From Candidatus Sumerlaeota bacterium (GTDB taxonomy: Bacteria > Sumerlaeota > Sumerlaeia > Sumerlaeales > Sumerlaeaceae): a stretch of 64,000 nucleotides of DNA. Positions within the stretch are counted from its first letter, which is position 1. Every line of letters begins with the position of its first letter. The notes beneath the pieces are model-generated. The model did no database searches. It was not told the DNA's origin and worked only from the letters and a program-made list of their open reading frames with translations. The stretch spans positions 1-64,000 of the forward strand of contig JAAZBM010000009.1 of NCBI GenBank assembly GCA_012513815.1, written 5' to 3'. Shown one piece after another: positions 25,669 to 55,609 of this stretch. The position numbers and the translations under genes were made by a program.

Positions 25669-25802
25669 CTATTTAATTCTTACAACAAAATACAACACCA
25701 TACACATCAAAAACAGCATCCAACCACAAACCAATAATCATCATGTTTCGAGATTGACTCACACAACTCATTGTAATGCTCTTTGATAGGAAACTCACAA
25801 TC

Positions 25803-27260
25803 ATGGAACCAAAGAATAGATCTAACATTGCAGGCAAAAACACCGAGATTGAAGTCGACATCGATTCGCTCGCGTTCGGCGGCAAAGGATTGGGACGCCT
25901 CAACGGCGAATTCGTCGTTTTCGTCACGGGAGCACTCCCCGGCGACCGCGTCCGGGCGCTCGTCACCAAACGCAAGCCACAATACGCCGAAGCAAAACTC
26001 CTGCAAATCATCACGCCATCGCCCGACAGACAGGAACCCAAATGCCCGCTCTTTGGACTGTGTGGTGGATGCCGCACCCAAGATCTTGACTACGCCAAAC
26101 AATGCGAATGGAAACAACAACAGGTCAGCGACTCGCTGCGACTCGCCGCAAACCTGCAGCAAACGCCATTCACCGCGCATCCTATCATCCCGTCGCCCAC
26201 CCCATGGCGCTACAGAAACAAAATGGAATTCTCCTTTGGCACGCAACCCGACAGCAACGGCCACATCGACATCGGACTCCACAAAACCGGCATGTGGTCG
26301 CAAACGCTCGACTGCGCCGACTGCTTTATCGCGCCGGAAACTTTCACGCGCGTCACCGACGCCATGCGCACAATCCTCAACGACATGGCGGCGACCGACT
26401 CGCGCATCTGCGCCTACAGCCAGAAAACGCATCAGGGGCTGCTGCGCTCGCTCGTCCTGCGCCACAGCGTCGCGACAGACACTTTCCTCATCGCCCTGCT
26501 GACCAACGACGCCCCATGGTTCGCCCCCAAAGCAGAGAGCATCGGACAACAAATCCTTCGGCAGTTCCCCAATTGTAAAGGCTACCTCTGGGGGACAACA
26601 ACCGCCCTATCCGACGTCGCCGTCCCCGAAGTTACACAACTCGAACTCGGCGATGGCATCATCGAGGAAACCCTCGGCGCGCGCACCTACCGCATCTCGC
26701 CCTTCTCGTTCTTCCAGACAAACTCACGCGGCGCCACCATACTCTACGACAAAGTCCGCGAGTACGCGCAGCTCGACACCGACCAACCCATCACGCTCCT
26801 CGACGCCTACTGCGGCACAGGCACCATTGGCATCCACTGCGCCGACAAAGCCGCCCGCGTCATCGGCATCGAACTCATCGAAGACGCCGTCATCGACGCA
26901 CGCCACAACGCCCAACGCAACGGCTTCGACAACTGCGAATTTCACGCAGGCGACATGCGCCAAGTCCTCGGCAAACTGCGCGCCGACGGGCAATTGCCCG
27001 CCTTCGACCGCGTCATCGTCGACCCGCCCCGTGGCGGCATGGAAGCCAAAGCGCTCAAGCTACTGCTCGACCTCAACGCCCCACTCATCGTCTACGTCTC
27101 CTGCAACCCCACCACCCTTGCGCGCGACGCGCAACAGATGATCGAGGCCGGCTACAGGATTCAGCAAATCCAACCCGTCGACATGTTCCCCCACACATTC
27201 CACGTCGAGACGGTATGTTTATTGTCCAAGCTTCAAAGCGAAGCAACATATCGAGATTGA
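25803..27260 (+). CDS. rlmD: RNA m5U methyltransferase, RlmD/TrmA type, with foreign last residues
   Basis: 485 residues from ATG 25803 (MEPKNR, after AGGAAA); ATG 25776 is an alternative without a ribosome site. An N-terminal TRAM domain (about 12-70, GGKGLGR) precedes the iron-sulfur cysteines C81, C87 and C90 (CPLFGLCGGC), with a fourth in DCADC. The SAM-methyltransferase core shows FSFFQTNS, DAYCGTGTIGI, DPPRGGM and the catalytic YVSCNPTT. It methylates a uridine in 23S rRNA (U1939-type) or tRNA, and family resolution is uncertain. The body has the codon style of the left flank, but after FPHTFHVETV the sequence becomes clostridial, so the last dozen residues (SKLQSEATYRD) are read out of frame from another gene. 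Confidence 0.85.
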   Translation: MEPKNRSNIAGKNTEIEVDIDSLAFGGKGLGRLNGEFVVFVTGALPGDRVRALVTKRKPQYAEAKLLQIITPSPDRQEPKCPLFGLCGGCRTQDLDYAKQCEWKQQQVSDSLRLAANLQQTPFTAHPIIPSPTPWRYRNKMEFSFGTQPDSNGHIDIGLHKTGMWSQTLDCADCFIAPETFTRVTDAMRTILNDMAATDSRICAYSQKTHQGLLRSLVLRHSVATDTFLIALLTNDAPWFAPKAESIGQQILRQFPNCKGYLWGTTTALSDVAVPEVTQLELGDGIIEETLGARTYRISPFSFFQTNSRGATILYDKVREYAQLDTDQPITLLDAYCGTGTIGIHCADKAARVIGIELIEDAVIDARHNAQRNGFDNCEFHAGDMRQVLGKLRADGQLPAFDRVIVDPPRGGMEAKALKLLLDLNAPLIVYVSCNPTTLARDAQQMIEAGYRIQQIQPVDMFPHTFHVETVCLLSKLQSEATYRD

Positions 27261-27505
27261 CCTCAACATGAATGAACTGGATTTGACAGCAGCAGAGAGC
27301 AAAGCGACCTATGATGAGATTAAGGTTGGAAAAGCACGGGTTGAAGGTCAGTAATTTATATATCGCTCAGGTCAAGCAAAAGTATGGTATCATTGAACGG
27401 GAAAATTACAATAAGCCGAAGTCTAAAAACGCCAGACAGCCGAAATGCCCACCTGAAAAGGAGGCAGCGATTGTGGAGGCACTAAAGCATTTTGGGATGA
27501 TTTAA
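27212..27505 (+). pseudogene. Frameshifted C-terminal extension of a clostridial RlmD-type gene
   Basis: Read across frames, the segment gives AKQHIEIDLNMNELDLTAAESKATYDEIK, then KHGLKVSNLYIAQVKQKYGIIERENYNKPK and PPEKEAAIVEALKHFGMI before TAA at 27503-27505. From memory this is the C-terminal extension found on many clostridial RlmD-like methyltransferases. Two frame breaks are seen, near 27225-27235 and near 27325. The second looks like a short deletion before GGAAAAGCACGGG. Only the tail of the gene is present, and its 5' part is replaced by the left-flank rlmD at the conserved HVETV segment. As it stands it cannot encode a working protein. Confidence 0.7.
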
Positions 27506-27516
27506 GGAGGGCGGAT

Positions 27517-27748
27517 ATGACGCATTTGATTTCTTGTGAGTTCAACATGGATACTGCCTGTGTGGAACTGAGATTCACCGATGGGAGCATGATTGCGATT
27601 GATACTATCGCCGTTGAGAACGAGATTGCCCGTAATTATGTACGAACGGTCGGAGCTTGATTATTTGATTTACAATGCTCCTTTGGAATATGCTGATCTG
27701 ATTTTGAACAGTGACCCGGAAACTTATCTTAAAACTGTGACCGAGTAA
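27517..27748 (+). pseudogene. DUF6061-like small protein, frameshifted
   Basis: A perfect AAGGAGG lies six bases before ATG 27517. The first 47 residues (MTHLISCEFNMDTACVELRF...TIAVENEIARNY) end at TGA 27658. In the next frame MYERSELDYLIYNAPLEYADLILN continues to TAA 27746. One extra T in AATTATGTACGAA (about 27635-27640) explains the break: without it AAT ATG TAC GAA would run on in frame. Together they match DUF6061, a short protein frequent on clostridial mobile elements (recalled, not searched). It follows the rlmD tail by 11 bases, as if in one transcript. Confidence 0.65.
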
Positions 27749-27813
27749 AAAACGCTTGATTAGTACATTTCCGCGCTGTATATGAACTTTTTGTAACATT
27801 CTTCAGATATCCA

Positions 27814-27843
27814 TTGACATTGCAAATCAAAACGCGCTATACT
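27814..27843 (+). promoter_or_regulatory. Sigma-70 type promoter of the trp operon
   Basis: TTGACA (27814-27819) and TATACT (27838-27843) are separated by 18 bases, close to consensus. Transcription should begin near 27850, just ahead of the T-box leader. Confidence 0.75.
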
Positions 27844-27850
27844 ACACCAA

Positions 27851-28147
27851 AAATTAAATACACTAAACCGCTGAAGCGGAGATAACGGCAATGATGCCTT
27901 TACAGAGAGCCTGCGATGCTGAGAATCAGGCAAGAAACAAGTTGTCAAATGGACCGCTGAAGGCGCAGTCAAATGTGATTATCACAAAGTATGCTGCGAC
28001 GTTGCAGGCAGACGTCATTTGCCGGGGATATGTTGGTATCCTACTAAGTGCACAGGTCATGCTGTGAATCAAGGTGGCACCGCGGATAAGTGTTTTTATT
28101 CGTCCTTGACAGAAAGTATATTTCTGTCAAGGGCGTTTTTGTTTTTT
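27851..28147 (+). promoter_or_regulatory. T-box leader riboswitch, tryptophan-type
   Basis: The leader between the promoter and trpE has the landmarks of a T-box: AGAGAGCC and GCTGAGA in stem I (27905-27923), a specifier loop with TGG at 27950-27952 (the Trp codon), the conserved T-box sequence AAGGTGGCACCGCGG (about 28071-28085), and a terminator hairpin with T-run. In Firmicutes, uncharged tRNA-Trp pairs with the specifier and with the T-box bulge, which stabilises the antiterminator and lets transcription enter the operon. The specifier assignment rests on position, codon and operon content. Such leaders are rare outside Gram-positive bacteria, which supports a clostridial origin. Confidence 0.9.
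28103..28147 (+). terminator. Attenuator terminator of the T-box leader
   Basis: CCTTGACAGAAA (28103-28114) pairs perfectly with TTTCTGTCAAGG (28121-28132-33), followed by GCG and a broken T-run (28135-28147). It is the expected alternative fold to the T-box antiterminator. Confidence 0.9.
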
Positions 28148-28315
28148 ATGAGACTTTTTTGACGGAAGATATAACGTCAAAGGAGTTTTTCTTTTTCAAA
28201 GGAGGTTACGGTACGGTGTTTTCAAAACGATGGTGGCGCTCCCAGCGCCTAATAAATTTGAGTATCAGAATGCAAATGCAGATGAACGTTACTTCATCCT
28301 TTGGAGGTGCAACGA

Positions 28316-29782
28316 ATGAAAATTCTGCCAACTTTAGCTGAAGTAAAAAAGATTGCTTCAGATGCAAAATACAACGTGCTCCCGGTGAGCTATGAGATAC
28401 TTTCCGACTTCACCACGCCCATTGAAACCATGAAGATACTGAAAAACGTATCTACCCATTGCTATATGCTGGAATCCGCCCAAACAAACGAAACGTGGGG
28501 AAGATATACATTCCTCGGCTTCGACCCGAAAATGGAGATCAGCTGCATGGACGGTAAAATGAAAATCGGAAATCTTAAAGTAAAAACGGAGAACCCATCA
28601 GGCTATCTCCGACAGATTCTTGCGGATTACAAAAGTCCCCGATTTGATTATCTTCCGTCCTTTACGGGTGGACTAGTTGGATATTTCTCCTACGATTATC
28701 TGGGATACAGCGAACCGAGTGTGAAATGTGATGTGGCAGATACTGAAAATTTCAAGGATGTCGATTTGATGCTTTTTGACAAGGTTATTGCTTTTGACAA
28801 CCTGAGACAAAAAATTATTCTCATCGTCAATATGCCGCTGAAAGATGTGGAAGTGGGATATAACAAAGCAGTCATGGAATTGAAACAGCTTGTAGAACTG
28901 CTCAAAAATGGCGAAAAGAAGAACGAGCCCAGCGGCAGGCTGCTCGGTGAAGTAACGCCGCTGTTTGACAAAGCGCATTTCTGCGATATGGTGGAAAAGG
29001 CGAAACACCATATCCGTGAGGGCGACATTTTCCAGATCGTGCTTTCAAACCGTCTGTCTGCTCCCTTTGAAGGAAGTTTGCTCAATACCTATCGTGTACT
29101 CCGAACCATCAATCCTTCGCCCTATATGTTCTATTTCTCTGGGACAGATGTTGAAGTGGCAGGTGCTTCTCCCGAAACGCTGGTGAAGCTGGAAAACGGT
29201 GTATTGCACACCTTTCCACTTGCCGGAACAAGACCGAGGGGAAAGACCGTGGAGGAAGACAAAGCGTTGGAAAACGAGCTGCTTGTGGATGAAAAAGAAC
29301 TTGCCGAACACAATATGCTGGTCGATCTCGGCAGAAACGACCTCGGCAAGATCAGTAAATTCGGCACCGTGCAGGTCGAGAAACTTCACTCGATTGAACG
29401 CTTTTCTCACGTCATGCACATCGGCTCTACAGTTCGGGGAGAGATTGACGAAAAACACGATGCACTCGACGCCATCGAAGCGGTATTGCCTGCGGGAACG
29501 CTCTCCGGCGCACCGAAGATCAGAGCTTGCCAGTTGATCGGAAAACTTGAAAACAACAAGCGTGGTATTTACGGCGGTGCGATCGGGTACATCGACTTCG
29601 CCGGGAATATGGATACCTGCATCGCCATCCGCATTGCCTATAAGAAAAACGGTAAGGTGTTTGTGAGAAGCGGCGCTGGCATTGTAGCAGATTCCGTCCC
29701 TGAGAAGGAATTTGAAGAATGCCTGAACAAAGCAAAATCTTCCCTCAAAGCATTGGAACTTGCCCAGGAGTCGGAATTATGA
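28316..29782 (+). CDS. trpE: Anthranilate synthase component I
   Basis: 488 residues, GGAGG nine bases before ATG 28316. It converts chorismate and ammonia (from TrpG) to anthranilate, the first step of tryptophan synthesis. The C-terminal chorismate-binding domain is intact: IREGDIFQIVLSNR, PSPYMFYF, GASPETLV, PLAGTRPRGKT, LVDLGRNDLG, LPAGTLSGAPKIRA and YGGAIGYIDF. The N-terminal domain carries the tryptophan-feedback region (LLES-type motif seen as MLESAQTNETWGRYTFLG). Length is normal. The stop overlaps trpG in ATGA. First gene of the T-box-controlled operon. Confidence 0.97.
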   Translation: MKILPTLAEVKKIASDAKYNVLPVSYEILSDFTTPIETMKILKNVSTHCYMLESAQTNETWGRYTFLGFDPKMEISCMDGKMKIGNLKVKTENPSGYLRQILADYKSPRFDYLPSFTGGLVGYFSYDYLGYSEPSVKCDVADTENFKDVDLMLFDKVIAFDNLRQKIILIVNMPLKDVEVGYNKAVMELKQLVELLKNGEKKNEPSGRLLGEVTPLFDKAHFCDMVEKAKHHIREGDIFQIVLSNRLSAPFEGSLLNTYRVLRTINPSPYMFYFSGTDVEVAGASPETLVKLENGVLHTFPLAGTRPRGKTVEEDKALENELLVDEKELAEHNMLVDLGRNDLGKISKFGTVQVEKLHSIERFSHVMHIGSTVRGEIDEKHDALDAIEAVLPAGTLSGAPKIRACQLIGKLENNKRGIYGGAIGYIDFAGNMDTCIAIRIAYKKNGKVFVRSGAGIVADSVPEKEFEECLNKAKSSLKALELAQESEL

Positions 29783-30348
29783 TTTTATTGATTGATAACT
29801 ACGACAGTTTTTCCTATAATCTTTTTCAGCTCGTCGGCGAGATTGAGCCGGATATCAAGGTAATACGCAACGATGAAATGACAATAGAGGAAATCAAAAG
29901 TTTAGGTCCCGACCGCATTATCCTTTCACCCGGCCCGGGAAGGCCAGAGGACGCAGGGGTTATTATGGAAGTTGTCAAAACGCTTGGCAAGGATATTCCC
30001 ATTTTGGGTGTCTGCCTCGGTCATCAGGCAATCTGCGCAGCATTTGGCGCAACCGTTACCTATGCAAAAGAATTGATGCACGGCAAGCAGTCGAACGTGA
30101 AGTTCGATACTTCCTGCCCGTTATTTACAGGTTGTCCCGAAGTTGCTCCTGTTGCACGTTACCATTCTCTTGCAGCAGACGCCAACACCATACCAGAATG
30201 CTTGAAGGTCACAGCGCTTACCGATGACGGAGAAATCATGGCGGTTCAGCATAAAGAATATCCCATCTATGGCGTACAGTTTCATCCTGAATCTATTATG
30301 ACACCGAACGGAAAACAGATGCTCAGAAATTTTATCAGTGAGATATAA
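29779..30348 (+). CDS. trpG: Anthranilate synthase component II (glutamine amidotransferase)
   Basis: 189 residues starting at ATG 29779, inside the trpE stop. It supplies ammonia from glutamine to TrpE. Class I amidotransferase motifs are complete: LIDNYDSFSYNL at the N-terminus, SPGPGRPEDAG, the nucleophile Cys in GVCLGHQAI, and the His-Glu pair in VQFHPESI. Length is that of a stand-alone TrpG, not fused to TrpD. Translation is probably coupled to trpE. Confidence 0.97.
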   Translation: MILLIDNYDSFSYNLFQLVGEIEPDIKVIRNDEMTIEEIKSLGPDRIILSPGPGRPEDAGVIMEVVKTLGKDIPILGVCLGHQAICAAFGATVTYAKELMHGKQSNVKFDTSCPLFTGCPEVAPVARYHSLAADANTIPECLKVTALTDDGEIMAVQHKEYPIYGVQFHPESIMTPNGKQMLRNFISEI

Positions 30349-30351
30349 GTG

Positions 30352-31383
30352 ATGATTAAAGAAGCTATCGTAAAGATTGTAAATAAAGAAGACCTCACCT
30401 ATGACGAGGCGTACGCCGTCATGAACGAAATTATGAGCGGCGAAACGACAGCCACACAGAATGCCGCTTTTCTTGCCGCCCTATCCACAAAGAGCGCAAG
30501 CGCCGAAACCACCGACGAGATTGCAGGCTGTGCGGCTGCTATGAGAGCACATGCAACCAAGGTTGAAACCGGTATGGAGCTTTTCGAGATCGTCGGAACG
30601 GGCGGTGACAACGCCCACAGCTTCAACATTTCCACTACCTCGGCACTCGTTGTCGCGGCAGGCGGGATGAAGGTTGCGAAGCACGGCAACCGTGCCGCTT
30701 CTTCCCTCTGTGGAACGGCGGATTGCCTGGAAGCGCTGGGCGTCAATATTCAGCTGAGTCCGAAAAGATGTATTGAGCTGCTGAACGAAGTCGGTATGTG
30801 CTTCTTCTTCGCACAGAAATACCATACCTCCATGAAATATGTGGGCGCTATCCGCAAGGAGCTGGGCTTCCGTACTGTGTTCAATATTCTTGGCCCGCTG
30901 ACCAATCCGGGCACGCCGTCCATGCAGCTTCTCGGCGTGTACGATGATTATCTGGTTGAACCGCTGGCACAGGTATTGATCAGCCTCGGCATCAAACGTG
31001 GGATGGTCGTATACGGGCAGGATAAGCTTGACGAAATTTCCATGAGTGCGCCAACGACGGTCTGCGAGATTCGTGACGGCTGGTTAAAATCCTCAGTAAT
31101 CAAGCCCGAAGATTTTGGTTTTGGACGCTGCACAAAAGATGACTTGAAAGGTGGAACTCCCGAAGAAAACGCCAAAATCGCCCTTGCCATTCTGAACGGA
31201 GAAAAGGGACATAAGCGAAACGCGGTGCTGCTGAACGCCGGTGCAGCGCTGTATATCGGCGGCAAGGCGGACAGCATGAAGGACGGTATCGCACTTGCGG
31301 CGGAGATCATTGATTCTGGCAAAGCCCTTGAAACGCTGAACAAACTGATCGAAGTCAGCAACCGCCCGGAGGTGGAGACATGA
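30352..31383 (+). CDS. trpD: Anthranilate phosphoribosyltransferase
   Basis: 343 residues from ATG 30352, three bases after the trpG stop; GTG at 30349 is the alternative. It joins anthranilate with PRPP. The phosphate/PRPP site [24 protein letters not shown] and KHGNRAASS are intact, as are the anthranilate-binding GADCLEALG-like stretch ([12 protein letters not shown]) and the [11 protein letters not shown] loop with the metal-site region DEIS. Its stop overlaps trpC in ATGA. No defects are seen. Confidence 0.97.
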
Positions 31384-32171
31384 CGATACTCGATCAACTT
31401 GCAGACCACGCACGAAAACGTGTGATAGTAGATATGGAAGAAAACAGCCTTGACATGATGCGGGAATTAGCAATGTTGAAAAGTTCAGCAACGGGGAGTC
31501 CTTTTGCTTTTGAGCAAGCATTGAGAAAAGAAGATGTGAGTTTTATCTGCGAGTGCAAAAAAGCATCCCCTTCTAAAGGTTTGATTGCACCGAACTTTCC
31601 TTATCTGGAGATTGCAAAGGAATATGAAACGGCAGGAGCAGATTGTATTTCCGTCTTGACTGAACCGAAATGGTTTTTGGGAAATGACGAATATCTTAAA
31701 GAAATAACCGAAGCAGTTTCAATCCCGTGTCTTCGCAAAGATTTTACGGTGAACGAATATCAGATTTATCAGGCAAAGGTTTTAGGAGCATCAGCAGTTC
31801 TGCTGATCTGTTCCATTCTGACAGAAGATCAGATGAAGGACTACATTAGAATTTGCGATAACCTTGGTCTTTCCGCTTTGGTTGAGGCACACGACGAGCA
31901 AGAAGTGCAAACGGCACTTAATACCGGAGCACGTATTATCGGGGTCAATAATCGCAATCTCAAAGATTTTTCGGTGGATACCGATAACAGTCGCAGACTT
32001 CGGGAGTTGATTCCTCCGAATGTACTGTTTGTTTCCGAAAGCGGCGTGCGGACTGCTGAGGATGTGGCGGCACTTCGTAAAATCGGCGCTGATGCCGTTT
32101 TGATCGGAGAAACGCTGATGAGGGCGTCTGATAAAAGAGCAAAGCTGGCAGAACTGCGGGGTGCAGTATGA
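31380..32171 (+). CDS. trpC: Indole-3-glycerol phosphate synthase
   Basis: 263 residues, (beta/alpha)8 enzyme closing the indole ring from CdRP. Signature elements: [13 protein letters not shown] with the catalytic lysines, [61 protein letters not shown], and [11 protein letters not shown]. Monofunctional, with trpF as a separate gene that overlaps its stop by four bases. Confidence 0.97.
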
Positions 32172-32776
32172 CGAAAATCAAGTTATGCGGACTATCCCGA
32201 ATGGAAGATATAGAAACCGTCAACGAACTAAAACCCGAATATATCGGATTTGTATTTGCCCCCAAAAGCAGACGTTATGTTACACCGCAGACAGCAGCAG
32301 AGCTAAAACAACTGCTTTCCACAGAAATACAGGCAGTCGGTGTGTTTGTCAATGAAAGTCCGAAAAAGATCGCGGAACTGTTGCACAGCGGCGTCATTGA
32401 CATTACCCAACTTCACGGGGACGAGGATGAGGGCTATATCAGGCGACTGAAACAACACACCGATAAACCAATCATCAAGGCTTTTCGGGTAGAAACGGAA
32501 AATGATATTGCTGACGCAGAACGGTGCTCCGCTGATTATATTCTGTTGGACTCCGGTGCAGGAACGGGTACGGTATTTGATTGGAAACTTTTGATGAACA
32601 TACGCAGACCGTATTTCCTCGCAGGCGGACTCTCACCCGATAATGTTGAAAAAGCTGTTACAACACTACATCCCTTTTCTGTTGATGTCAGCTCCGGGAT
32701 AGAAACGGGCGGAACAAAGGACAAAGAAAAAATGGCGGCATTTGTTGCCGCTGTCAGAAAGAAAGAAAAATTATGA
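32168..32776 (+). CDS. trpF: Phosphoribosylanthranilate isomerase
   Basis: 202 residues, small TIM barrel catalysing the Amadori rearrangement before TrpC. The N-terminal [11 protein letters not shown] carries the catalytic Cys; [17 protein letters not shown] carries the catalytic Asp; [14 protein letters not shown] and [14 protein letters not shown] form the phosphate site. ATGA overlaps link it to trpC upstream and trpB downstream. Confidence 0.96.
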
Positions 32777-33963
32777 CGAATCCGAACGGACGCTTCGGCA
32801 TTCACGGCGGTCAGTACATCCCAGAAACGCTGATGAATGCAGTCATCGAGCTGGAAGAAGCGTATAACCATTACAAAAACGATCCCGAATTTAACCGGGA
32901 GCTTACCGAGCTTTTCAATGAATACGCAGGCAGACCGTCAAGGCTGTACTACGCCGAAAAAATGACGAAGGACCTCGGCGGTGCGAAGATTTATCTCAAG
33001 CGTGAAGACTTGAACCATACGGGCGCACACAAGATCAATAACGTACTCGGTCAGGCACTTCTGGCAAAGAAGATGGGTAAAACACGTCTGATCGCCGAAA
33101 CCGGAGCAGGTCAGCACGGCGTTGCTACGGCAACCGCAGCAGCCCTTATGGGTATGGAGTGTATGGTTTTCATGGGCGAGGAAGATACCATTCGTCAGGC
33201 TCTCAATGTATATCGTATGCGCCTTCTCGGCGCAGAGGTTATCCCCGTAAAGACGGGGACAGCAACACTCAAAGATGCGGTTTCCGAAGCCATGCGTGAG
33301 TGGACTTCCCGCATCAGCGACACCCACTATTGCCTCGGTTCGGTGATGGGCCCCCATCCGTTCCCCACCATCGTCCGTGATTTTCAAGCGGTTATTTCCA
33401 AAGAAATTAAGGGGCAGATGATGGCAAAGGAAGGCAGATTGCCCGATGCGGTAATCGCCTGTTTGGGCGGCGGCTCCAATGCCATCGGCAGCTTCTATCA
33501 TTTCATCGACGACAAATCCGTAAAGCTCATCGGCTGTGAAGCGGCAGGCAGAGGCATTGATACCTTTGAAACGGCAGCAACCATTGCCACAGGCAGACTC
33601 GGTATCTTCCACGGAATGAAGTCCTATTTCTGCCAGGATAAGGACGGTCAGATTGCCCCCGTTTACTCCATTTCCGCAGGACTTGATTATCCGGGTGTGG
33701 GACCCGAACACGCACATCTTCACGATATCGGACGGGCAGAATATGTCCCGATCACAGATGATGAGGCGGTAAATGCTTTTGAATATCTGGCAAAAACCGA
33801 GGGTATTATTCCTGCTATCGAATCGGCACACGCTGTTGCCCACGCAATGAAGATCGCACCGATAATGGAGAAAGATAAAATCATCGTCATTACCATTTCC
33901 GGCAGAGGCGACAAGGACTGCGCCGCCATTGCCCGTTACAGAGGGGAGGATATCCATGAGTAA
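32773..33963 (+). CDS. trpB: Tryptophan synthase beta chain
   Basis: 396 residues, PLP enzyme that condenses indole with serine. The Schiff-base lysine is in [33 protein letters not shown] (phosphate loop), GYPGVGPEH-like [12 protein letters not shown], and the final SGRGDKD are all intact. Residue pattern is that of TrpB1, the partner of TrpA. It overlaps trpA by eight bases (ATGAGTAA). Confidence 0.97.
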
Positions 33964-34810
33964 TACTCAGAAAGCATTTGAAAATGGCAAGGCATTTATC
34001 GCCTTTATCACCTGCGGGGATCCAGATCTGGAAACCACCGCCAAAGCGGTCTGTGCCGCTGTGAAAAACGGGGCAGACCTTATTGAACTTGGTATTCCGT
34101 TCTCTGACCCTACCGCAGAGGGTCCCGTTATTCAGGGCGCAAACCTGCGGGCGCTGACCGGCGGCATCACGACTGATAAGATATTTGCCTTTGTAAAAGA
34201 GCTTCGACGTGATGTGAAAATCCCGATGGTCTTTATGACCTATGCAAATGTTGTGTTCTCCTATGGTGCAGAAAAATTTATTTCTACTTGTTGCGATATT
34301 GGTATTGACGGACTCATCCTACCCGATCTTCCGTATGAAGAAAAAGAGGAATTTCAGCCGCTATGCAGACAATATGGCGTTAATCTGATTTCACTGATTG
34401 CTCCTACCTCGGAAAACCGTATCGCCATGATTGCAAAAGAAGCGGAAGGCTTCATCTACATCGTTTCCAGCCTCGGTGTGACAGGCACACGGAGTGAGAT
34501 CAATACAGACCTTGCCTCTATCGTCAAGGTGGTTAGAGAAAATGCCGATGTACCGTGTGCTATCGGGTTCGGTATTTCCACACCGGAGCAGGCAAAGAAA
34601 ATGGCGGATATCTCTGACGGAGCCATTGTCGGTTCAGCGATTATTAAGCTGCTTGAAAAATACGGCAAAGATTCACCGAAGTATGTGGGTGAATACGTAA
34701 AATCCATGAAGGATGCCTTGACGCTTGTCAGCACTTCTCCTTCGGTGGCTCCCGCAAATCTGCAGAAGCCCATACCGCGTCCAAAGCCCCAACCTAAGCC
34801 ACATCCGTAA
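33956..34810 (+). CDS. trpA: Tryptophan synthase alpha chain with replaced C-terminus
   Basis: 284 residues from ATG 33956. It cleaves indole-glycerol phosphate and channels indole to TrpB. The catalytic Glu and Asp are present in [45 protein letters not shown] and [10 protein letters not shown] follow as usual. The normal protein should end just after YVKSMKDA. Here, from 34709, the frame enters a 110-bp repeat read antisense to a DUF5320 gene and adds about 30 Pro/Lys-rich residues ([20 protein letters not shown]) before TAA 34808-34810. Only a few native residues should be missing, so activity may survive. Confidence 0.92.
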
Positions 34811-34917
34811 CCGGTTCCGCACCATGGGCACTTCCAGTCTGCAGGCAGGTTTTCCCGCGGCCCATCCTTGGCCTCGTCATAGACATAGCCGCAAACGGAA
34901 CAGATATATTGTTTCAT
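34456..34917 (-). CDS. Rubredoxin, C-terminally truncated and fused to a DUF5320 fragment
   Basis: The first 34 residues ([20 protein letters not shown]...WKCPWCG) are a rubredoxin with both CxxCG knuckles, enough to hold one iron. The usual last 15-20 residues are absent; the frame continues through the 110-bp repeat ([21 protein letters not shown]) and then antisense through trpA to a stop at 34456. Only the part from 34816 to 34917 is native. Whether the hybrid folds is unknown. Rubredoxins pass electrons in oxygen defence and metallocentre pathways, fitting the cluster upstream. The 5' neighbour on this strand is a NifX-like gene. Confidence 0.6.
34709..34818. repeat. 110-bp perfect direct repeat, copy 1
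   Basis: Every base from AAGGATGCC (34709) to CCGGTTCC (34818) recurs at 39472-39581. In copy 2 the segment is the internal to C-terminal part of an intact DUF5320 gene. In copy 1 it is sandwiched between the 3' end of trpA and the 3' part of a rubredoxin gene, so copy 1 is the derived one. The trpA side shares at least nine bases (AAGGATGCC encodes its native KDA end), a microhomology. Confidence 0.95.
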
Positions 34918-34991
34918 CGCTTACCATCGCCTCCTTTTGTTCTGATCGTACACCTTGCAAGAGAATAGTTCTGTAATGTTGTCACCTTGAA

Positions 34992-35345
34992 TCAGTGACA
35001 TTCATCTGCATGTTCATGCTCGTGGCAGATGGAGCCGGTGGATTCCAGTTCACCGCGCAGATAGGCTTCTACAGCAGACTTGGCATCTCCTTGGGCACCC
35101 AGGACGACTTCTACACCACGCTCGTTGAAGATGTCCACAGCACCACCGCCCATACCGCCGGAGATGATAACCTCGACACCCATATCCGCAAGGAAATTGG
35201 GGAGGAAACCAGGTCTGTGGCCGGGATTTGGAACGGACTGCTCGTTGACAATACTGCCGTTTTCAGCGTCGTAGATCATAAAGTTTTCACAGTGACCGAA
35301 GTGCGCCCAAATCTGTTTTCCGTTACAAGATACTGCAATTTTCAT
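34992..35345 (-). CDS. NifX/NifB-C family (ORP-like) metallocluster-binding protein
   Basis: 117 residues: MKIAVSCNGKQIWAHFGHCENFMIYD at the N-terminus and VIISGGMGGGAVDIFNERGVEVVLG in the middle are typical of the dinitrogenase iron-molybdenum cofactor family (NifX, NifY, NifB C-terminus, orange protein ORP). The C-terminus is His-rich (CHEHEHADECH), a likely metal-binding tail. No nif structural genes are present, so a role outside nitrogen fixation is likely. It starts 15 bases after the Mrp-type gene ends, in one operon. Confidence 0.85.
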   Translation of the reverse strand: MKIAVSCNGKQIWAHFGHCENFMIYDAENGSIVNEQSVPNPGHRPGFLPNFLADMGVEVIISGGMGGGAVDIFNERGVEVVLGAQGDAKSAVEAYLRGELESTGSICHEHEHADECH

Positions 35346-35360
35346 GTGTCATTTCTCCTT

Positions 35361-36185
35361 TTATTGATTTTGTATTTTCTCAAAGATTCCATCTAACCAT
35401 GTTCCGTCAAATAGTTCAATCATACCGTGGTCACAAGCTGCTACAAGCTTCGGATCAATCGGCAGTTTGGCAATAGATTCAATGCCATATTTTTCTGCGA
35501 TACCGTCAATGTGGCTCTCACCGAACACATGAAGTGCTTCGCCGCATTTGGGGCAGATTACATAACTCATGTTCTCTACCAAAGCCCACACTGGGATATT
35601 CATCTTATTGGCCATCTTAACAGCCTTTTCTACGATCATTCCCACCAACTCCTGTGGGGATGCTACAATGACGATGCCATCTACCGGTGTCGACTGAAAT
35701 ACGGTTAGTGGCACATCACCAGTTCCCGGAGGCATATCAATAAACATATAATCAACATCGCCCCAGAGCACATCCGACCAGAATTGCTTCACCACACCAG
35801 CAATCATAGGGCCACGCCAAAGGACGGGGTCAGTTTCGTTATCGGTTAGCAAATTCAATGACATTACAGAGATTCCGGTCTTTGATTTTGCAGGTATGAT
35901 ACCGCCATCCGTTCCATCTGCCCGTTCATGGATACCAAACATCTTTGGGATGGAGGGGCCGGTAATATCGGCATCCAATATGGCGGTATGGTAGCCGTTT
36001 CGCTGTGCCGTAACCGCCAGGAGCGAGGTCATCAGGCTTTTTCCGACGCCGCCTTTGCCGCTGACAACAGCAATCACCTTTTTGACATGGCTGCCCTCAT
36101 GGAGCCGTGCCAACAGGCTCTCTTTTGTGCGCTCACTGCATGTTTCATTGCAATGTTCGCAGTTGTGTGAACAATTTTCGCTCAT
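35361..36185 (-). CDS. mrp: Mrp/NBP35-type P-loop ATPase (Fe-S carrier)
   Basis: 274 residues from ATG 36185, chosen for AAGGAAGG upstream; the longer frame has no ribosome site. An N-terminal Cys-rich stretch (CSHNCEHCNETC) precedes the deviant Walker A VVSGKGGVGKS, then LDADITGPSIPKMFG, MPPGTGDVPL and ENMSYVICPKCGE with the CxxC that binds a bridging Fe-S cluster. Mrp/ApbC proteins carry and transfer [4Fe-4S] clusters. In this operon it is the likely assembly factor for the NifX-like and MinD-like partners. Confidence 0.93.
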   Translation of the reverse strand: MSENCSHNCEHCNETCSERTKESLLARLHEGSHVKKVIAVVSGKGGVGKSLMTSLLAVTAQRNGYHTAILDADITGPSIPKMFGIHERADGTDGGIIPAKSKTGISVMSLNLLTDNETDPVLWRGPMIAGVVKQFWSDVLWGDVDYMFIDMPPGTGDVPLTVFQSTPVDGIVIVASPQELVGMIVEKAVKMANKMNIPVWALVENMSYVICPKCGEALHVFGESHIDGIAEKYGIESIAKLPIDPKLVAACDHGMIELFDGTWLDGIFEKIQNQ

Positions 36186-36209
36186 ACGATACCTTCCTTT
36201 CCGATAATT

Positions 36210-36900
36210 CAGTGATTTGCAAAGGCAATAAACAGAGAAACTCCGATTCCAGCAATAAAGGCAAGGGAGGAATGCTCTTTTCATGTTCGCTTGCTTCCGG
36301 AAGCAAATGTGCAGCGGAAATGTAAATCAAGACACCTGCAACAAAGCCAAGCATAAGGCCAAGCGTATCATTACTGACACGGTTCACCAATGGATAGGCA
36401 ACAAAAGCACCAATGGGTGTGGACAGTGCCGCCACAAGAAAGGCAAAGAACCCGGCCTTTTTTCTGCTGACATTGCTTTTTTGCAGTGCAAGGAAGGTGA
36501 TCATACCCTCCGCAAGTTCATGGACAACCAACCCCAAGCCACTTAAAATGCCAACTGCGGCGCTGACATTGAAAGTGACTGTGTATATCACGCCATCCAA
36601 TAGCGAGTGAATTAAGATTCCTTCGACGGCGGTAACGCCAAATGCCAGTTCTTTCTGTTTTGTCTTATACTTGATAACTTTGTTGCTGACATACATGAAC
36701 AGGAACCCCACCAGTGCGACATAGCCTGCTGATGGATTCTTCTGCAATGCCTGTGGAAATGCCATAATTAATGGCGATGTAATCAGCATTCCGGCAGCAA
36801 AACACATACAGTATTCCTTCATGCGGTCTGCCCAACGCTGGTTTTTATAAATTGCCAATATTCCAATGGTGTTAACAAGCATTGCACTAACAGAAAACAA
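36210..36900 (-). pseudogene. ZIP-family metal transporter, frameshifted near its C-terminus
   Basis: Eight-helix ZIP layout: NTIGILAIYKNQRW, ITSPLIMAFPQAL, the metal-site helices HSLLDGVIYT and VVHELAEGMITFLAL, then AAHLLPEASEHEK. After this the reading frame breaks. One base is missing from an A-run (T-run 36278-36281 on the given strand). In the next frame the expected last helix SSLAFIAGIGVSLFIAFANH ends at TGA 36210, leaving 24 bases before the Mrp start. No ATG begins the N-terminal frame; TTG 36900 is used, and codons from the previous gene's stop are open, so a second indel or unusual start is possible. It would import Zn, Fe or similar for the cluster. Confidence 0.75.
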
Positions 36901-36960
36901 TGCAATCCATTGGAATGAAGTAAGTTCTTTTATGCCGGTACCTTCTTGCTTTTCTTGGAG

Positions 36961-37833
36961 TTATGCGTCATTTGTGCGGAGGATATCTTGAACGGCAGCA
37001 AAAATCTTCCGAATTGCCATCCCCGCAGGGCAATCCAGCTCTGCGACGGTTCGGCCCTCATTGGCGGCTTTCACCGCCATGGGATCAAATGGGATTTTCC
37101 CAACAAACGGAATCTGCTGCTCCTTACAGAAATTCTCAATTTCTTCAGCGTGATTGGGGCTTGTATCATACTTGTTGACACAAACTGCCAGCTTTGCCTG
37201 GAATGTTTCCGCTGTCTTGCATAGCCGTTTCAGGTCGCTGATTCCACTGCCGCTGGGTTCTGCCACTACCAGCACCAGATCCATACCACTGACCGAGGCA
37301 ATGACAGGGCAGCCGATACCGGGAGAACCGTCTACAATGGCGAGGTCACACGTTGGTGCATTCTTAATCATTGCCAGCTTCACTTCTGTGACCAGTTTGC
37401 CGGAGGTGCCACGCCCCATTTTCAGTGTAGCAGTGGAGAACACCGCATCGTCATGATACAGTTCCCGTTTTCCTGCTAAATCTTCCCGCATGGCAACCGC
37501 TCCTACAGGACAGGAGTAGCTGCACACACCACAGCCTTCACAGGAATATTCATTGACAGCAGCGGTACCATTGATGATATGGATGCAATCAAAGCGGCAT
37601 AGCTTTTCGCAGGAACCACAGCCGATACACTTGTCGGCATCCACTAGGGCTTTCTCACCACCCAAGAAGTCAAAGACTTCCGGTGCTGTTGTTTGCTTTG
37701 TTACCAAATGCAGATTGGGGGCATCCACATCGCAGTCGGCTACAGCCTTCGCCTGTGCCAGATAAATCAGCGCTGCTGAGACGGTGGTTTTCCCTGTGCC
37801 GCCTTTACCGCTTAAGAGAAGCAATCGTTTCAT
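36961..37833 (-). CDS. MinD/ParA-like ATPase with inserted 2x[4Fe-4S] ferredoxin domain
   Basis: 290 residues. Walker A variant LLSGKGGTGKTT at the N-terminus, CDVDAPNLHL, then an inserted ferredoxin domain with CIGCGSCEKLC and CEGCGVCSYSCP (about 67-112), and GSPGIGCPVIAS (switch) further on. This is the ORP-complex type of ATPase (as in the DVU2103/2104 pair of Desulfovibrio vulgaris), always found as two adjacent genes. Overlaps its twin upstream by four bases (ATGA), consistent with a heterodimer. The role may be ATP-driven electron or metal-cluster transfer to the NifX-like protein. Confidence 0.9.
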   Translation of the reverse strand: MKRLLLLSGKGGTGKTTVSAALIYLAQAKAVADCDVDAPNLHLVTKQTTAPEVFDFLGGEKALVDADKCIGCGSCEKLCRFDCIHIINGTAAVNEYSCEGCGVCSYSCPVGAVAMREDLAGKRELYHDDAVFSTATLKMGRGTSGKLVTEVKLAMIKNAPTCDLAIVDGSPGIGCPVIASVSGMDLVLVVAEPSGSGISDLKRLCKTAETFQAKLAVCVNKYDTSPNHAEEIENFCKEQQIPFVGKIPFDPMAVKAANEGRTVAELDCPAGMAIRKIFAAVQDILRTNDA

Positions 37834-38654
37834 AGGCAGCCTCCGATCTTCTGGAGAATGGCTTCAAAGAGTCCCTTTTGTTCGCCGATACACTCCGCCG
37901 CAATCTCATTGTTCGCAAGGTGCTTGGCAAGGGTCGGGTCATAAGGAATTCGAGCCAGAACAGACAGTCCCTTATTTCTGCAGAAATGCTCCAACGGTTC
38001 GTAATCTTCCGTCTGTTTGTTGATGACTACTCCGCAAGGCTTGCGGAGCAATGTTGCCAACTCCCATACCATCTTGAAGTTGTGGAAGCCAAAAGCAGTA
38101 GGTTCCACCACCAGCACACAGTAATCGCTATCCATAATGCTCTCCATGACGCTGCAGGCACTGCCGGGAGGGCAGTCCAGGATGGTCAATCCCTCTGCTT
38201 GCTTTAGCGCCTGCCGAATCACTGGTACACCGGACGCTTCGCCCGGATTGAGAATTCCCGTCACCACACGAATACCGCCATGGTATCCGATTTCCAGTAC
38301 ACCCACGGCTTTCTCTGTTTCCGAAACAGCACCCGCAGGGCAGACCATTTGGCAGAGACCGCAGCTATGACAAACCTCAGAAAAGACTACGGGCTTTTCC
38401 ATGATGTACATCAGCGCATGGAAACGGCAGGCGTTCACGCATTCCTTACAACCGCTGCATTTGGCGGCATCAAAGGTGGGAAGCCGCGTGCTGACTACGG
38501 ATGTTCGGATTCCTTCCGGCTTGAAAAATAGTTGTCCGTTAGGTTCCTCCACATCGCAGTCGATGTAGGTGCAGTTTCCGGCAGCCGCCGCCAGATTGAC
38601 TGCCACAAAGGTTTTCCCAGCGCCGCCCTTTCCGCTTAAACAGGCGATCCTCAT
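37830..38654 (-). CDS. MinD/ParA-like ATPase with inserted ferredoxin domain, twin copy
   Basis: 274 residues; start ATG 38654 (MRIACLSGKGGAGKT) overlaps the stop of the NifX-like gene in ATGA. The architecture is the same as the following gene: Walker A, CDVEEPNGQLF, ferredoxin CSGCKECVNAC and CHSCGLCQMVCP (about 65-110), and DCPPGSACSVMES. It differs enough from its twin to be an old paralogue rather than a recent duplicate. A pair of such ATPases with NifX-like proteins defines ORP-like loci of anaerobes. Confidence 0.9.
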   Translation of the reverse strand: MRIACLSGKGGAGKTFVAVNLAAAAGNCTYIDCDVEEPNGQLFFKPEGIRTSVVSTRLPTFDAAKCSGCKECVNACRFHALMYIMEKPVVFSEVCHSCGLCQMVCPAGAVSETEKAVGVLEIGYHGGIRVVTGILNPGEASGVPVIRQALKQAEGLTILDCPPGSACSVMESIMDSDYCVLVVEPTAFGFHNFKMVWELATLLRKPCGVVINKQTEDYEPLEHFCRNKGLSVLARIPYDPTLAKHLANNEIAAECIGEQKGLFEAILQKIGGCL

Positions 38655-39001
38655 CGGATGCCGTGAAAGCCGCCGTGAAAATTCGTCAACGTTTCCAGCG
38701 TTCCGTTTCGGCAAGCGGCAAGATCATCTGCTGCGGCTTGATTGGCAGATTTGTAGATTTTCATACCTGCTGCATGAAACACATCAGCGGCATTCTGTCC
38801 ACAGCGGGGCGTGATAAGGACGGTAACAGCGCTGTCAACCAAAAACTGCGCAGCCTTCACACCGGCACCACCCTGCGCAGCCGCTGCAGGATTTTCGACA
38901 ACCGTCTCAACACCATCATTCCAAAACAGGAAATAGGGTGCCCGTGCCAACACCATACAGACATCGGTTTTGTTTTCATCCAATGGAATTGCGATTTTCA
39001 T
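38651..39001 (-). CDS. NifX-family (ORP-like) protein
   Basis: 116 residues from ATG 39001 with AAGGAGG upstream; the longer frame is only the shadow of the DUF134 gene. MKIAIPLDENKTDVCMVLARAPYFLFW, GAGVKAAQFLVDSAVTVLITPRCGQNAADVF and a Gly-His-rich tail (NFHGGFHGIR) place it in the NifX/ORP family. It is the second such protein of the locus, as in ORP systems where two related subunits occur. Coupled by overlaps on both sides. Confidence 0.85.
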   Translation of the reverse strand: MKIAIPLDENKTDVCMVLARAPYFLFWNDGVETVVENPAAAAQGGAGVKAAQFLVDSAVTVLITPRCGQNAADVFHAAGMKIYKSANQAAADDLAACRNGTLETLTNFHGGFHGIR

Positions 39002-39366
39002 AGTGTTCCTCCTTCCGATTGCTGACAACGACGATGCCTGTGGCATCCACCGCAGCCGCAATAGCTTTCCTTTCCATCGCACAAGCGATAATCTCCTCCG
39101 GAGATTTGGAGGGGGCGGCCCTCCACCAGTGCGTCTGCCAGCTTCTTTCTGGCACTGGTATAGATCTGCTGTACCGTTGCCCGCGCAATGTACATATATT
39201 CGCCGCATTGTTCCTGCGAAAAGCCCTCACGATCAATGAGGCGCAGGGATTCGTACTCGTCCACATTCAAAATGACTGGTTCCACGCCTTCTGTTACATT
39301 CACGGGCAGGAAGCCATCATTGTCCGGCAGACGGCATACTTTTCTACATTTCCTTGGTCTTGGCAT
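38998..39366 (-). CDS. DUF134 helix-turn-helix protein
   Basis: 122 residues; ATG 39366 is eight bases after GGAGG and gives the usual MPRPRKCRKVC start. Residues 40-95 form a sigma-4-like helix-turn-helix (EYESLRLIDREGFSQEQCGEYMYIARATVQQIYTSARKKLADALVEG). A C-terminal CGCGGCHRH stretch could bind metal or an Fe-S cluster. DUF134 proteins accompany NifX/MinD loci in anaerobes and are probable transcriptional regulators; this one is a good candidate to bind the paired palindromes ahead of the operon. Confidence 0.85.
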   Translation of the reverse strand: MPRPRKCRKVCRLPDNDGFLPVNVTEGVEPVILNVDEYESLRLIDREGFSQEQCGEYMYIARATVQQIYTSARKKLADALVEGRPLQISGGDYRLCDGKESYCGCGGCHRHRRCQQSEGGTL

Positions 39367-39425
39367 TTGATTCACCTCCGTATCACAGGCAGTACCCGAG
39401 GCGTCCCCCGGGCACCGCTTTGCTT

Positions 39426-39683
39426 TTACAGTTTCTGCAAGCGCTGTTCAATGGTTGCGAGTCGAGCCTGCAAGGATGCCTTGACGCTTGTCAGCACTTC
39501 TCCTTCGGTGGCTCCCGCAAATCTGCAGAAGCCCATACCGCGTCCAAAGCCCCAACCTAAGCCACATCCGTAACCGGTTCCACCAAAGCGAGCACCGCCA
39601 TTGTAGCGCATTCTGCACCCATGACCTGCTTGTGCTCCCATACCACGGGGGCCTGTTCCATCCATACCCGGCATTTTGCTCAC
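39426..39683 (-). CDS. DUF5320-type Gly/Met-rich small protein
   Basis: 85 residues. MPGMDGTGPRGMGAQ at the start, a Gly-Met-Arg-rich middle ([19 protein letters not shown]) and a short C-terminal coiled coil (LQARLATIEQRLQKL) are the hallmarks of DUF5320 proteins that occur next to NifX/MinD genes. The function is unknown; a metal or scaffold role is guessed. It is the first gene of the leftward operon, with AAGGAG before ATG 39683. The source of the 110-bp repeat lies inside it. Confidence 0.8.
   Translation of the reverse strand: MSKMPGMDGTGPRGMGAQAGHGCRMRYNGGARFGGTGYGCGLGWGFGRGMGFCRFAGATEGEVLTSVKASLQARLATIEQRLQKL
39472..39581. repeat. 110-bp perfect direct repeat, copy 2 (parent copy)
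   Basis: It lies inside the intact DUF5320 gene and is identical to 34709-34818. Flanks diverge completely on both sides: here the sequence continues as DUF5320, there as trpA and rubredoxin. Confidence 0.95.
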
Positions 39684-39696
39684 CTCCTTATAGTTT

Positions 39697-39765
39697 ATAG
39701 CATATGCTATTAACTATATTATACTCCGCACATCAAGAAATTCAACAGAATAAATAGCATATGCT
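39697..39765 (-). promoter_or_regulatory. Promoter flanked by two identical palindromic operators
   Basis: On the minus strand TTGAAT (39745-39740) and TATAAT (39723-39718) are 16 bases apart and point to the DUF5320 operon. A 14-bp perfect palindrome, ATAGCATATGCTAT (39697-39710), overlaps the expected start of transcription, and its 10-bp core AGCATATGCT recurs at 39756-39765, just upstream of the -35. The centres are 57 bases apart. Two copies bracketing one promoter suggest repression by a dimeric regulator, perhaps with looping. The rest of the gap to 39942 shows no gene. Confidence 0.75.
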
Positions 39766-39942
39766 GCAAATAATCTGTGAACACGTGTAAATGTGAGTAT
39801 TTTCTAAACAAGCAGATTGCGCAAGAGGAACGCATAAACTCAGAACTTACAATTTTTGCTACATTTATACGCTGTTGGCAATGTCTTTGAGTCTTTCTTT
39901 GTTGTCCTATTTCAAAATTTCTGTCATAGACCGACGCCCGAC

Positions 39943-39977
39943 AAAAAAAGCAGCCTTAAACCGAAGTCTAAGACTGC
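39943..39977 (-). terminator. Intrinsic terminator after lgt
   Basis: Read on the minus strand, GCAGTCTTAGAC and GTTTAAGGCTGC pair (two G-U pairs) around a TTCG tetraloop and are followed by seven T. It lies 14 bases past the lgt stop at 39991. Confidence 0.9.
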
Positions 39978-39990
39978 AATGTAAGGCTCG

Positions 39991-40769
39991 CTATTTATTT
40001 TTCATTTTTTGGCGAGACCTCATAATTCCGTATATTGTTATCCCAAAGAACACTAACATAATAGAAACGACCTGTGATACCCTTATGCCTGGAATTAAGT
40101 AAAGGCTGTCAGTTCTTAACCCTTCAATGATAAATCTACCTAATCCATATCCAACAAAATAGGTAGCAAGTAATTGCCCATCAAATCGTTTTCTGCGACG
40201 CAGGAAAAGGAGCAGCCCAAAAACAGCAAAGTCCCACATACTTTCGTAAAAGAAAGTTGCTTGGTGCCACTCTTGGAGGCATCTATATACACTGCATACG
40301 GGAAGAATTGAAAATTCGGATTTGCTACCAAATTCCCAAAGGCTTCCTGGTTGACAAAATTTCCCCATCTTCCAATGGCTTGCCCTAATACCAAACTTGG
40401 AACGGCAATATCCAGGAATTTCAACAGAGGTATGTTTTTCCTCTTGCAAAAAACGCAAGCGGTGAGAAAACCTCCAATGACACCTCCGTAGATGGCTAAG
40501 CCACCATTCCAGATTTTGATTATGTCCATGGGGTTATTCTTGTAAGAACTCCATTCAAAAATCACATAATAGGCTCTGGCACAAAGAATCGCTACTGGCA
40601 ATGCAATGAGAATAAAATCCAAGATGGCATCTTTGTATAATCCCTGTCGTTTTGCTTCCCGCATTGCAAGCAGAAGCCCTAACACCATACCGCTGGCGAT
40701 AATGATACCATACCATGCAATATGGAATCCTTCTATTCCAAAGATGTTTTGAAAAGCATATTTACTCAT
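39991..40769 (-). pseudogene. lgt: Prolipoprotein diacylglyceryl transferase, frameshifted
   Basis: The first frame (40769 to about 40275) encodes an Lgt N-terminus and core: FHIAWYGIIIASG, GGLAIYGGVIGGF and the signature IGRWGNFVNQEAFG. It then goes out of frame near VYIDASK. The next frame resumes EWHQATFFYESMWDFAVFGLLL, GLGRFIIEGLRTDSLYL and runs to the stop at 39991, giving the complete family length of about 260 residues. The break (about 40272-40285, GCCTCCAAGAGTGG) is an indel or a sequencing error. Intact, it would attach diacylglycerol to lipobox cysteines. GGAGG lies close before its ATG. Confidence 0.85.
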
Positions 40770-40780
40770 TGTTCCTCCTA

Positions 40781-40895
40781 TCAGACAATATCAACATCAT
40801 CCTCATGGTACATTCTGTAAGCAAGTATGTAAAGCAAGCTGACATAATCGAATGTGGAATGGGTGGTCACAAGAATCTGGGGCATACACGGCATA
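40781..40895 (-). pseudogene. C-terminal stub of an unrecognised clostridial gene
   Basis: A short frame (MPQILVTTHSTFDYVSLLYILAYRMYHEDDVDIV) ends at TGA 40781, seven bases before the lgt ribosome site, as the last part of an upstream operon member would. Its 5' part is missing because the sequence changes to an EAL-domain remnant near 40892-40900. I do not recognise the family. Confidence 0.4.
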
Positions 40896-41213
40896 CCGGT
40901 AGCCTTGCGCGTAGTCGCACTAGATTTCCCGGAGGAATTCCTCTTGCTCTTTCGTCTCGACGCCCTCGCAGATGACGCTGATTTCGTGTGTCGTGATGAC
41001 GCGGACGAGCGCCTTGAGCAAGTCACGCTGCAAGCAGCCGACACCGCTGTCGGTCTCGACGAAACTGCAATCCAGTTTCAGCATGTCAATCGGCAGGCGC
41101 TGCACGATGCCGAGTGACGAATAACCAATATCAAAGAGGAGGTCGTCTGACAACTCGAATAACTCGCCAACAATACATAGAACACTGTCAGCAAAGCAAC
41201 TGCTGTACGACAA
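40893..41213 (-). pseudogene. EAL-domain remnant
   Basis: The frame from 41213 reads IGYSSLGIVQRLPIDMLKLDCSFVETD, VITTHEISVICEGVETKEQEEFLREI, then TAG at 40920, then CDYAQGY in the same frame. These are the last 90 or so residues of an EAL c-di-GMP phosphodiesterase (K in LKLD, E in EGVET, Q in AQGY). The N-terminal two thirds with the EAL motif, and everything after QGY, are missing, and DDFG is corrupted to LLFD. It cannot work. Composition matches the right flank. The next 200 bases to the tRNA are AT-rich and empty. Confidence 0.75.
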
Positions 41214-51999: not shown

Positions 52000-52034
52000 A
52001 CGCAACACAAACAAAAAACGCACAGCCCAAAGAG

Positions 52035-54227: not shown

Positions 54228-55222
54228 GTCAAGTCCTTTTGTTTAGAGACACAATTGTTTGTTCGGCGTAGAATAGATTTTTCTGGTTTTGGGGTACTTA
54301 ATATCTCAATCAATACCCCTTGCAAAAGCATTTGAAAACCAAGAATCAAAGGAATGGTTGCCTTCATGATTGTTCCGGTAGGCGTTGGAATATTCCTTGG
54401 AGCATTCTGACACCACGCAGAAAGACCACTATACAGACCATAAAACACAAATATACTTCCTAAAATATATAGTGGCGCAATCAATGAAAAGTCGCGAACA
54501 ATAAATCGTTGGAAAAGGCGCCAAAAATACCCTTTGATAAGTAAAACAGGAAAAGTAAGTAAAACATTTTGAATGCTCATGGTCGACTTTTCGTCCGCAT
54601 ATATGGCGGGAATAGGCACATCAAGAACGCGTGCCTCCTCGACATTCAGCTGAATCAACATTTCGTTTTCGAAGAAAAATCGACGACGACTAAGACGATC
54701 GAAATCCAGTGCCCCAAGGAAACTCCCTGCAATTGCCACATAACCATTCTGTGGGTCTGTTACATTCCAATAACCACTCGCCATCTTCGTTAAAAAAGTC
54801 AACCCGATACTGCCCAACAAACGGATCTTCGGCATGGACGACAGCGCACGAGTATGACGAAACCGATTTCCTTTAGCATAATCACATAGGTTATTCGCGA
54901 TTGGGTCAATAAGCGATTCCAAATACTTTGGTTGCATCTGTCCATCGCCATCTAATTTAACAACAATATCGGCGCCTTCTTTCAAGGCCTCCTTGTATCC
55001 AGTTGCCATTGCCGCACCCAAACCAAGATTCTGCTCATGCGATATAATCAACAAACGCTCACAAGATAAAGACTGTAAAATAGCCAAAGACCCATCCGGG
55101 CTGCCATCAACAACAGCAATGATGCGGTCAACAAATGCTGGCACACTGGCGACAACATCCGCAATGTGCCGTTCAACCTTATAACAAGGAATCAAGACCA
55201 CTATTTTCAAGTCATGAAGCAT
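54224..55222 (-). CDS. GT2 glycosyltransferase, polyprenyl-phosphate sugar synthase-like
   Basis: 332 residues. The GT-A domain (1-230) has IPCYKVERHIADVV, VDGSPDGS, NLGLGAAMATGY and the metal site KLDGDGQM (DxD). TDPQNGYVAI and RRRFFFENEM resemble the acceptor region of DPM1/GtrB-type enzymes. Two helices near the C-terminus (about 245-310) anchor it to the membrane. It probably loads a sugar from a nucleotide onto polyprenyl phosphate. ATGA overlap with the GT-39-like gene indicates a donor-making and donor-using pair. Confidence 0.85.
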   Translation of the reverse strand: MLHDLKIVVLIPCYKVERHIADVVASVPAFVDRIIAVVDGSPDGSLAILQSLSCERLLIISHEQNLGLGAAMATGYKEALKEGADIVVKLDGDGQMQPKYLESLIDPIANNLCDYAKGNRFRHTRALSSMPKIRLLGSIGLTFLTKMASGYWNVTDPQNGYVAIAGSFLGALDFDRLSRRRFFFENEMLIQLNVEEARVLDVPIPAIYADEKSTMSIQNVLLTFPVLLIKGYFWRLFQRFIVRDFSLIAPLYILGSIFVFYGLYSGLSAWCQNAPRNIPTPTGTIMKATIPLILGFQMLLQGVLIEILSTPKPEKSILRRTNNCVSKQKDLT

Positions 55223-55609
55223 CTATGATTTATGAACACTTATGTCAAATCTGTTTCTAGATAGTTACCGCCACAATTTCGCTATTATTTCAGTAATAAC
55301 TAGCTGCTCAATGAACATGAAAGAATTGACTATTTACATTGTTGTCGCTTATGCCTATAGCAACAATAATAAAGACGATTATAGCACCCTTGAGGACATC
55401 CTGAAAAATCGCACAATAAGGTACAGACCGCTCATTTACATCACCGTACGATACTTTTGTAAATAACGATACAGATGCCTTCTATCATAAATGATTCTCT
55501 GTTTTTGTTATACTTTGTAGGTGTTCAATTTAGGGTTAGCAATCTTCATGCTACAAATATAGCATCATAGAACCTGTACCTTTTTCCGAAATCCAACCTG
55601 AAGCCATGA
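55223..55609. other. Intergenic region between divergent genes
   Basis: 387 AT-rich bases. A frame of 74 codons (55242-55466) has no ribosome site, no family match and the composition of spacer, so it is not called. No repeats or strong hairpins seen. Promoters for the leftward GT2 gene and the rightward membrane protein are expected here. Confidence 0.4.

Follow-up and report, generated by a model that had tools for sequence, protein, structure and literature searches.

Native tryptophan biosynthesis (trp) genes can be displaced by trp operons acquired laterally, as described by Xie et al. (2004, BMC Biol 2:15; cited in PMC2395257). T-box leaders, the type of element that precedes the operon examined here, were the subject of a 2008 survey (PMC2494555): most came from Firmicutes and Actinobacteria, two Proteobacteria had leuA T-boxes, and the single planctomycete and the ten chlamydiae covered had none. 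The locus described below shares with the displacement outlined by Xie et al. a complete foreign operon in place of native trp genes. Relative to that outline it differs in that the native genes lay at four scattered loci, two of which are readable as clean deletions, and in that donor and host belong to different phyla and the passenger genes are half decayed. With respect to the clostridial T-box trp operon, the order of rlmD tail, small ORF, T-box and trpEGDCFBA matches that of clostridial loci L009 and L005, whereas here the genome is not clostridial, the rlmD tail and small ORF are broken, and trpA has lost its stop. We regard the block as an unusually well-preserved case of the known trp displacement, and no published report of it was found in the literature searched.

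The window, which is the whole stretch of 64,000 nucleotides analysed, corresponds to bases 1-64000 of a contig of 122,977 bases (C5). The host genome comprises 1,882,275 bases on 17 contigs and is 66% complete with 0.05% contamination; it was compared in its entirety, together with parts of the genomes of same-family relatives. A preliminary description of this DNA had proposed a clostridial block at 27205-40900 in a backbone that it read as PVC-like, and composition edges, gene content and trp synteny bear the block out, giving a length of ~13.7 kb. Specifically, an order-4 Markov score contrasting other clostridial DNA with the rest of the host genome (trp regions were left out of the training) is positive from ~27.15-27.3 kb and negative from ~40.75-40.8 kb, and the block accounts for 12 of the 15 2-kb windows that score as most clostridia-like in the 1.88-Mb genome. 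A further run of the score gave a similar picture. Tetranucleotide distance also ranked the block high, though not uniquely, and the Markov score was the sharper of the two measures. The contrast drawn earlier between block and flanks is likewise upheld: in addition to the change of sign in the Markov score at both edges, an RlmD and a SpoIID-domain protein link the two flanks with the class of the host, the RlmD proteins of relatives being 47-54% identical to the rlmD-like product of the window. The features are collected in Table 1.

Table 1. Features of the block and its edges, in window coordinates.
Feature	Position	Strand	Basis or remark
Hybrid rlmD-like 23S rRNA uracil methyltransferase gene	25776..27260	+	Pfam tRNA_U5-meth_tr and TRAM
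Left joint, crossover within CACGTCGAGACGGT	27201..27214	+	Identical in clostridial L005; homologous rlmD codons
Decayed 3' tail of clostridial rlmD	27215..27505	+	Alignment to L009, L005
Broken small clostridial ORF (putative DUF6061, as named in the preliminary description)	27517..27750	+	Alignment to L009, L005, L003
T-box leader of trp operon	27862..28110	+	RF00230, 86 bits, E 7.7e-18
trpE-trpG-trpD-trpC-trpF-trpB-trpA	28301..34810	+	All seven frames open
First copy of 110-bp repeat	34709..34818	.	trpA/repeat joint shares AAGGATGCC
Rubredoxin, 33 codons left, fused to repeat	34819..34917	-	50% identity to clostridial rubredoxin in L149
ORP-type Fe-S cluster operon	34992..39375	-	NifX, Mrp, Zip (broken), two MinD-Fer4 (MinD-ferredoxin) ATPases and NifX2 (34992-39001); DUF134-like regulator
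Zip transporter, C-terminus frameshifted near 36280	36145..36900	-	Compared with clostridial Zip in L150
Small Gly-rich ORF with second repeat copy (39472-39581)	39426..39683	-	
Frameshifted clostridial-type lgt	39991..40769	-	Two ORFs match LGT model 3-155 and 158-238
Right joint and EAL-domain gene fragment of host composition	40890..41213	-	Pfam, composition

The clostridial origin of the Firmicutes-type genes noted in the preliminary description (trp with its T-box, NifX/MinD and lgt) is confirmed, for the trp part by synteny and by the TrpB tree; the Fe-S/lgt part is clostridial in composition. The trp part is collinear with clostridial metagenome-assembled genomes at ~79% DNA identity. 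Its TrpB shares 90-96% identity with clostridial TrpB and 56-62% with TrpB of the host's class; in the tree it lies within a clostridial clade with 100/100 support, and the TrpB proteins of relatives are placed elsewhere. Where dS was estimable, dN/dS of the trp genes was 0.016-0.125, and these values argue for strong purifying selection, though with dS close to saturation any selection in the new host is inseparable from what came before. Together with the open reading frames, such ratios fit a function of the trp genes in the new host.

The T-box leader matches RF00230 over its full length (model positions 1-219), and its T-box motif and terminator are conserved with the clostridial loci. 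A search at the Rfam gathering score missed it because its score lies below the threshold of 93, which the two closest clostridial leaders pass with 94; it was recovered by E-value. On these sequence features we consider the element to be a real T-box. T-box control is not foreign to the host's class: one T-box each is present in 29 of the 41 genomes of the class searched, the host included, so that most relatives carry one (L270 and L272 are among these loci). In the host genome the foreign trp T-box is the only one. At two T-box loci of the class the downstream gene was read as leuA-like, a reading made from ORFs antisense to the gene.

In terms of the joints, the edges placed previously at 27.2 and 40.9 kb can now be specified: the left edge falls inside a hybrid rlmD gene and the right edge in an EAL-domain gene that is cut at ~40.9 kb. 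The hybrid rlmD has a host body, and its last ~15 codons are clostridial and joined in frame; the stretch shared by both partners at this joint is ~14-17 bp. Within the block, which is a mosaic, further joints lie at 34709 and 34818. At the former, trpA passes just before its stop into a 110-bp copy of part of the small Gly-rich ORF, by which it loses its own stop and acquires an extension of ~28 residues derived from the joint; at the latter, the repeat passes into the truncated rubredoxin. The two copies of this direct repeat are exact, and a perfect repeat of this length looks recent or artefactual. Because assemblers can go astray at exact repeats, the succession of trp, 110 bp and Fe-S operon is where the structure is least certain. 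The repeat, which surrounds the Fe-S operon, could allow duplication or loss by recombination, or mark an ambiguity of the assembly. The site before the transfer cannot be reconstructed because gene order around rlmD and tRNA-Asn is not conserved among the relatives.

Several of the genes that accompany the trp operon carry lesions. The clostridial rlmD tail has a 1-bp insertion near 27234 and an 8-bp deletion near 27328, and the small ORF has a 1-bp insertion near 27636 and a TAT to TAA stop near 27746. To the frameshifts in the Zip transporter and lgt may be added the Zip start codon, which has apparently been lost. By calculation, five indels placed at random over ~11.8 kb of block coding DNA would leave the 6.4 kb of trp genes untouched with a probability of ~0.02, which is supportive but by itself not decisive. 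A scan of 72 host genes (26,132 codons) turned up neither frameshift nor stop, so the lesions in the block are not due to poor sequence quality in general. The broken lgt is the only lgt found in the 66% complete genome. An intact lgt is present in every relative tested, and the host's native copy may lie in the missing third.

The native trp genes of same-family relatives are distributed as trpGE, trpDC, trpFB and trpA over four separate loci. In relative G003, trpDC lies between two genes that we take to be nadE and hisH; in the host these two overlap by 4 bp and trpDC is absent. Similarly, the genes flanking trpFB in relatives G001, G002 and G005, presumably ribH and an amidase gene, are 12 bp apart in the host with no trpFB between them. 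The neighbours of trpGE are ~100 kb apart in the host, and trpGE is at neither place. When Trp proteins of the relatives were compared with the host genome, no native remnant was found save an orphan TrpB on contig C16. Given the 66% completeness, the absence of trpA and trpGE is weaker than that of trpDC and trpFB. TrpA, TrpC, TrpF and TrpE are encoded only by the block in the whole host genome, and the tested same-family relatives have their own. The block is thus predicted, from gene content, to supply the whole pathway lost by the host. This modifies the suggestion that the transfer gave the host tryptophan synthesis: a transfer is supported, and what it did was replace a native pathway. 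The orphan TrpB itself (G000 C16:36645-37808; L135:8636-9853) is intact and 56% identical to block TrpB. It was considered as a native copy and rejected, as it does not group with the TrpB of relatives in the tree (its branch is long and support is weak); it is probably another acquired copy.

Of the two readings left by the preliminary description, a real transfer is much better supported than a chimera made during assembly or amplification, in which a clostridial piece would have been misjoined into a host contig and the host would be a tryptophan auxotroph. Such an artefact would account for joints at short shared stretches, for the exact 110-bp repeat, for the absence of mobility genes and att sites, and for the fact that the joints occur in no second genome of the host's genus. 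We nevertheless hold it to be improbable. A random clostridial piece of 13.7 kb would contain a complete trp operon in only ~0.2-0.4% of cases (an estimate for a donor of 2-3 Mb), and this one carries exactly what the host has lost. The stretch shared at the left joint is shorter than usual assembler word sizes. A real transfer is favoured because neighbourhoods that are otherwise conserved have lost their native trp genes, and because passengers have mutated while trp genes, and the host genes tested, have not.

A transfer could have occurred in more than one step or on a vehicle of its own. Separate arrival of the trp and Fe-S/lgt segments, at differing times or from differing donors, is a tentative alternative that we find rather unlikely: in none of the clostridial loci compared does trp adjoin the Fe-S cluster, and a microhomology joint separates the two at 34709, but both segments are clostridial in composition with no host DNA between them, and a single rearranged incoming molecule involves fewer steps. 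Delivery by a mobile element, such as an integrative element or island, we regard as very improbable. A tRNA-Asn does lie 0.5 kb to the right of the block, but the block is on its 5' side, the left part of the block is an ordinary clostridial chromosomal neighbourhood, and the hybrid rlmD joint speaks against this route. Consistent with the earlier statement that integrase, transposase and a clear att repeat are lacking, the Pfam hits of block ORFs included no integrase, transposase or relaxase, and the two edges have no direct repeat of at least 11 bp in common; a single 13-bp inverted match between them is probably due to chance.

We are therefore confident, if short of certain, that a clostridial stretch entered the host chromosome in a living cell, that its trp operon displaced the native genes and that its passengers decayed. 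Chromosomal DNA from a donor resembling Lachnospiraceae or other Eubacteriales would have entered the host chromosome with its left end fused into rlmD, which both partners possess, as the hybrid gene attests. This entry may represent homology-facilitated illegitimate recombination (PMC3240628), a likeness that we draw from the anatomy of the ends, one in homologous rlmD and the other apparently illegitimate. The right end and the two internal joints would be of illegitimate type with microhomology, which is seen at the internal joints, and probably arose from template switching. Genes for ComEC, a sign of natural competence, are present in relatives and were not found in the incomplete host genome, which is uninformative. 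Once established, the T-box-controlled trpEGDCFBA operon would have rendered the native trp genes at their scattered loci superfluous, and their loss, visible in their absence, would have followed the gain. The passengers would decay from then on as the trp genes stayed under purifying selection. In view of its conserved elements, the operon most likely functions in the clostridial manner, with uncharged tRNA-Trp binding the T-box, preventing termination and switching the pathway on. That we are seeing a cross-phylum transfer part-way, in which a self-contained operon, equipped with a tRNA-sensing leader of its own, came in by a crossover in a housekeeping gene unrelated to it, has displaced the native genes from the four loci mapped and is at present losing its passengers, we put forward with less assurance, as the somewhat likelier description of its present state.

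To our knowledge, pathway replacement has mostly been argued from trees and nothing else. In the present case donor synteny, an entry crossover, emptied native sites and half-decayed passengers are visible together in one genome, so that the order of gain, redundancy and loss becomes testable with a few related genomes. If correct, a transfer caught part-way would amount to a natural, readable experiment on the selfish-operon idea. The case also indicates a way of assessing suspected chimeras when reads are lacking: one asks whether the genes carried by the block are those that the host is missing, and whether decay is confined to the passengers.

Other parts of the genome stand out in composition. 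The clostridia-like stretches C1:9-13 kb and C16:18-26 kb were considered as further pieces from the same donor and rejected, as they hold restriction genes, which we take to be McrBC-like and type I, respectively. The clostridia-like McrBC-like pair (G000 C1:9200-12830; L120) has a copy of the start of one host gene, MRMNKLNIIALAA..., on either side, as if inserted with target duplication. The second stretch (G000 C16:18-26 kb; L152), also clostridia-like in composition, is a type I restriction-modification region. Within the genome, composition deviates most in the window itself, at 52000-57600 (GC 0.39-0.40), where glycosyltransferase genes probably mark a surface-polysaccharide region.
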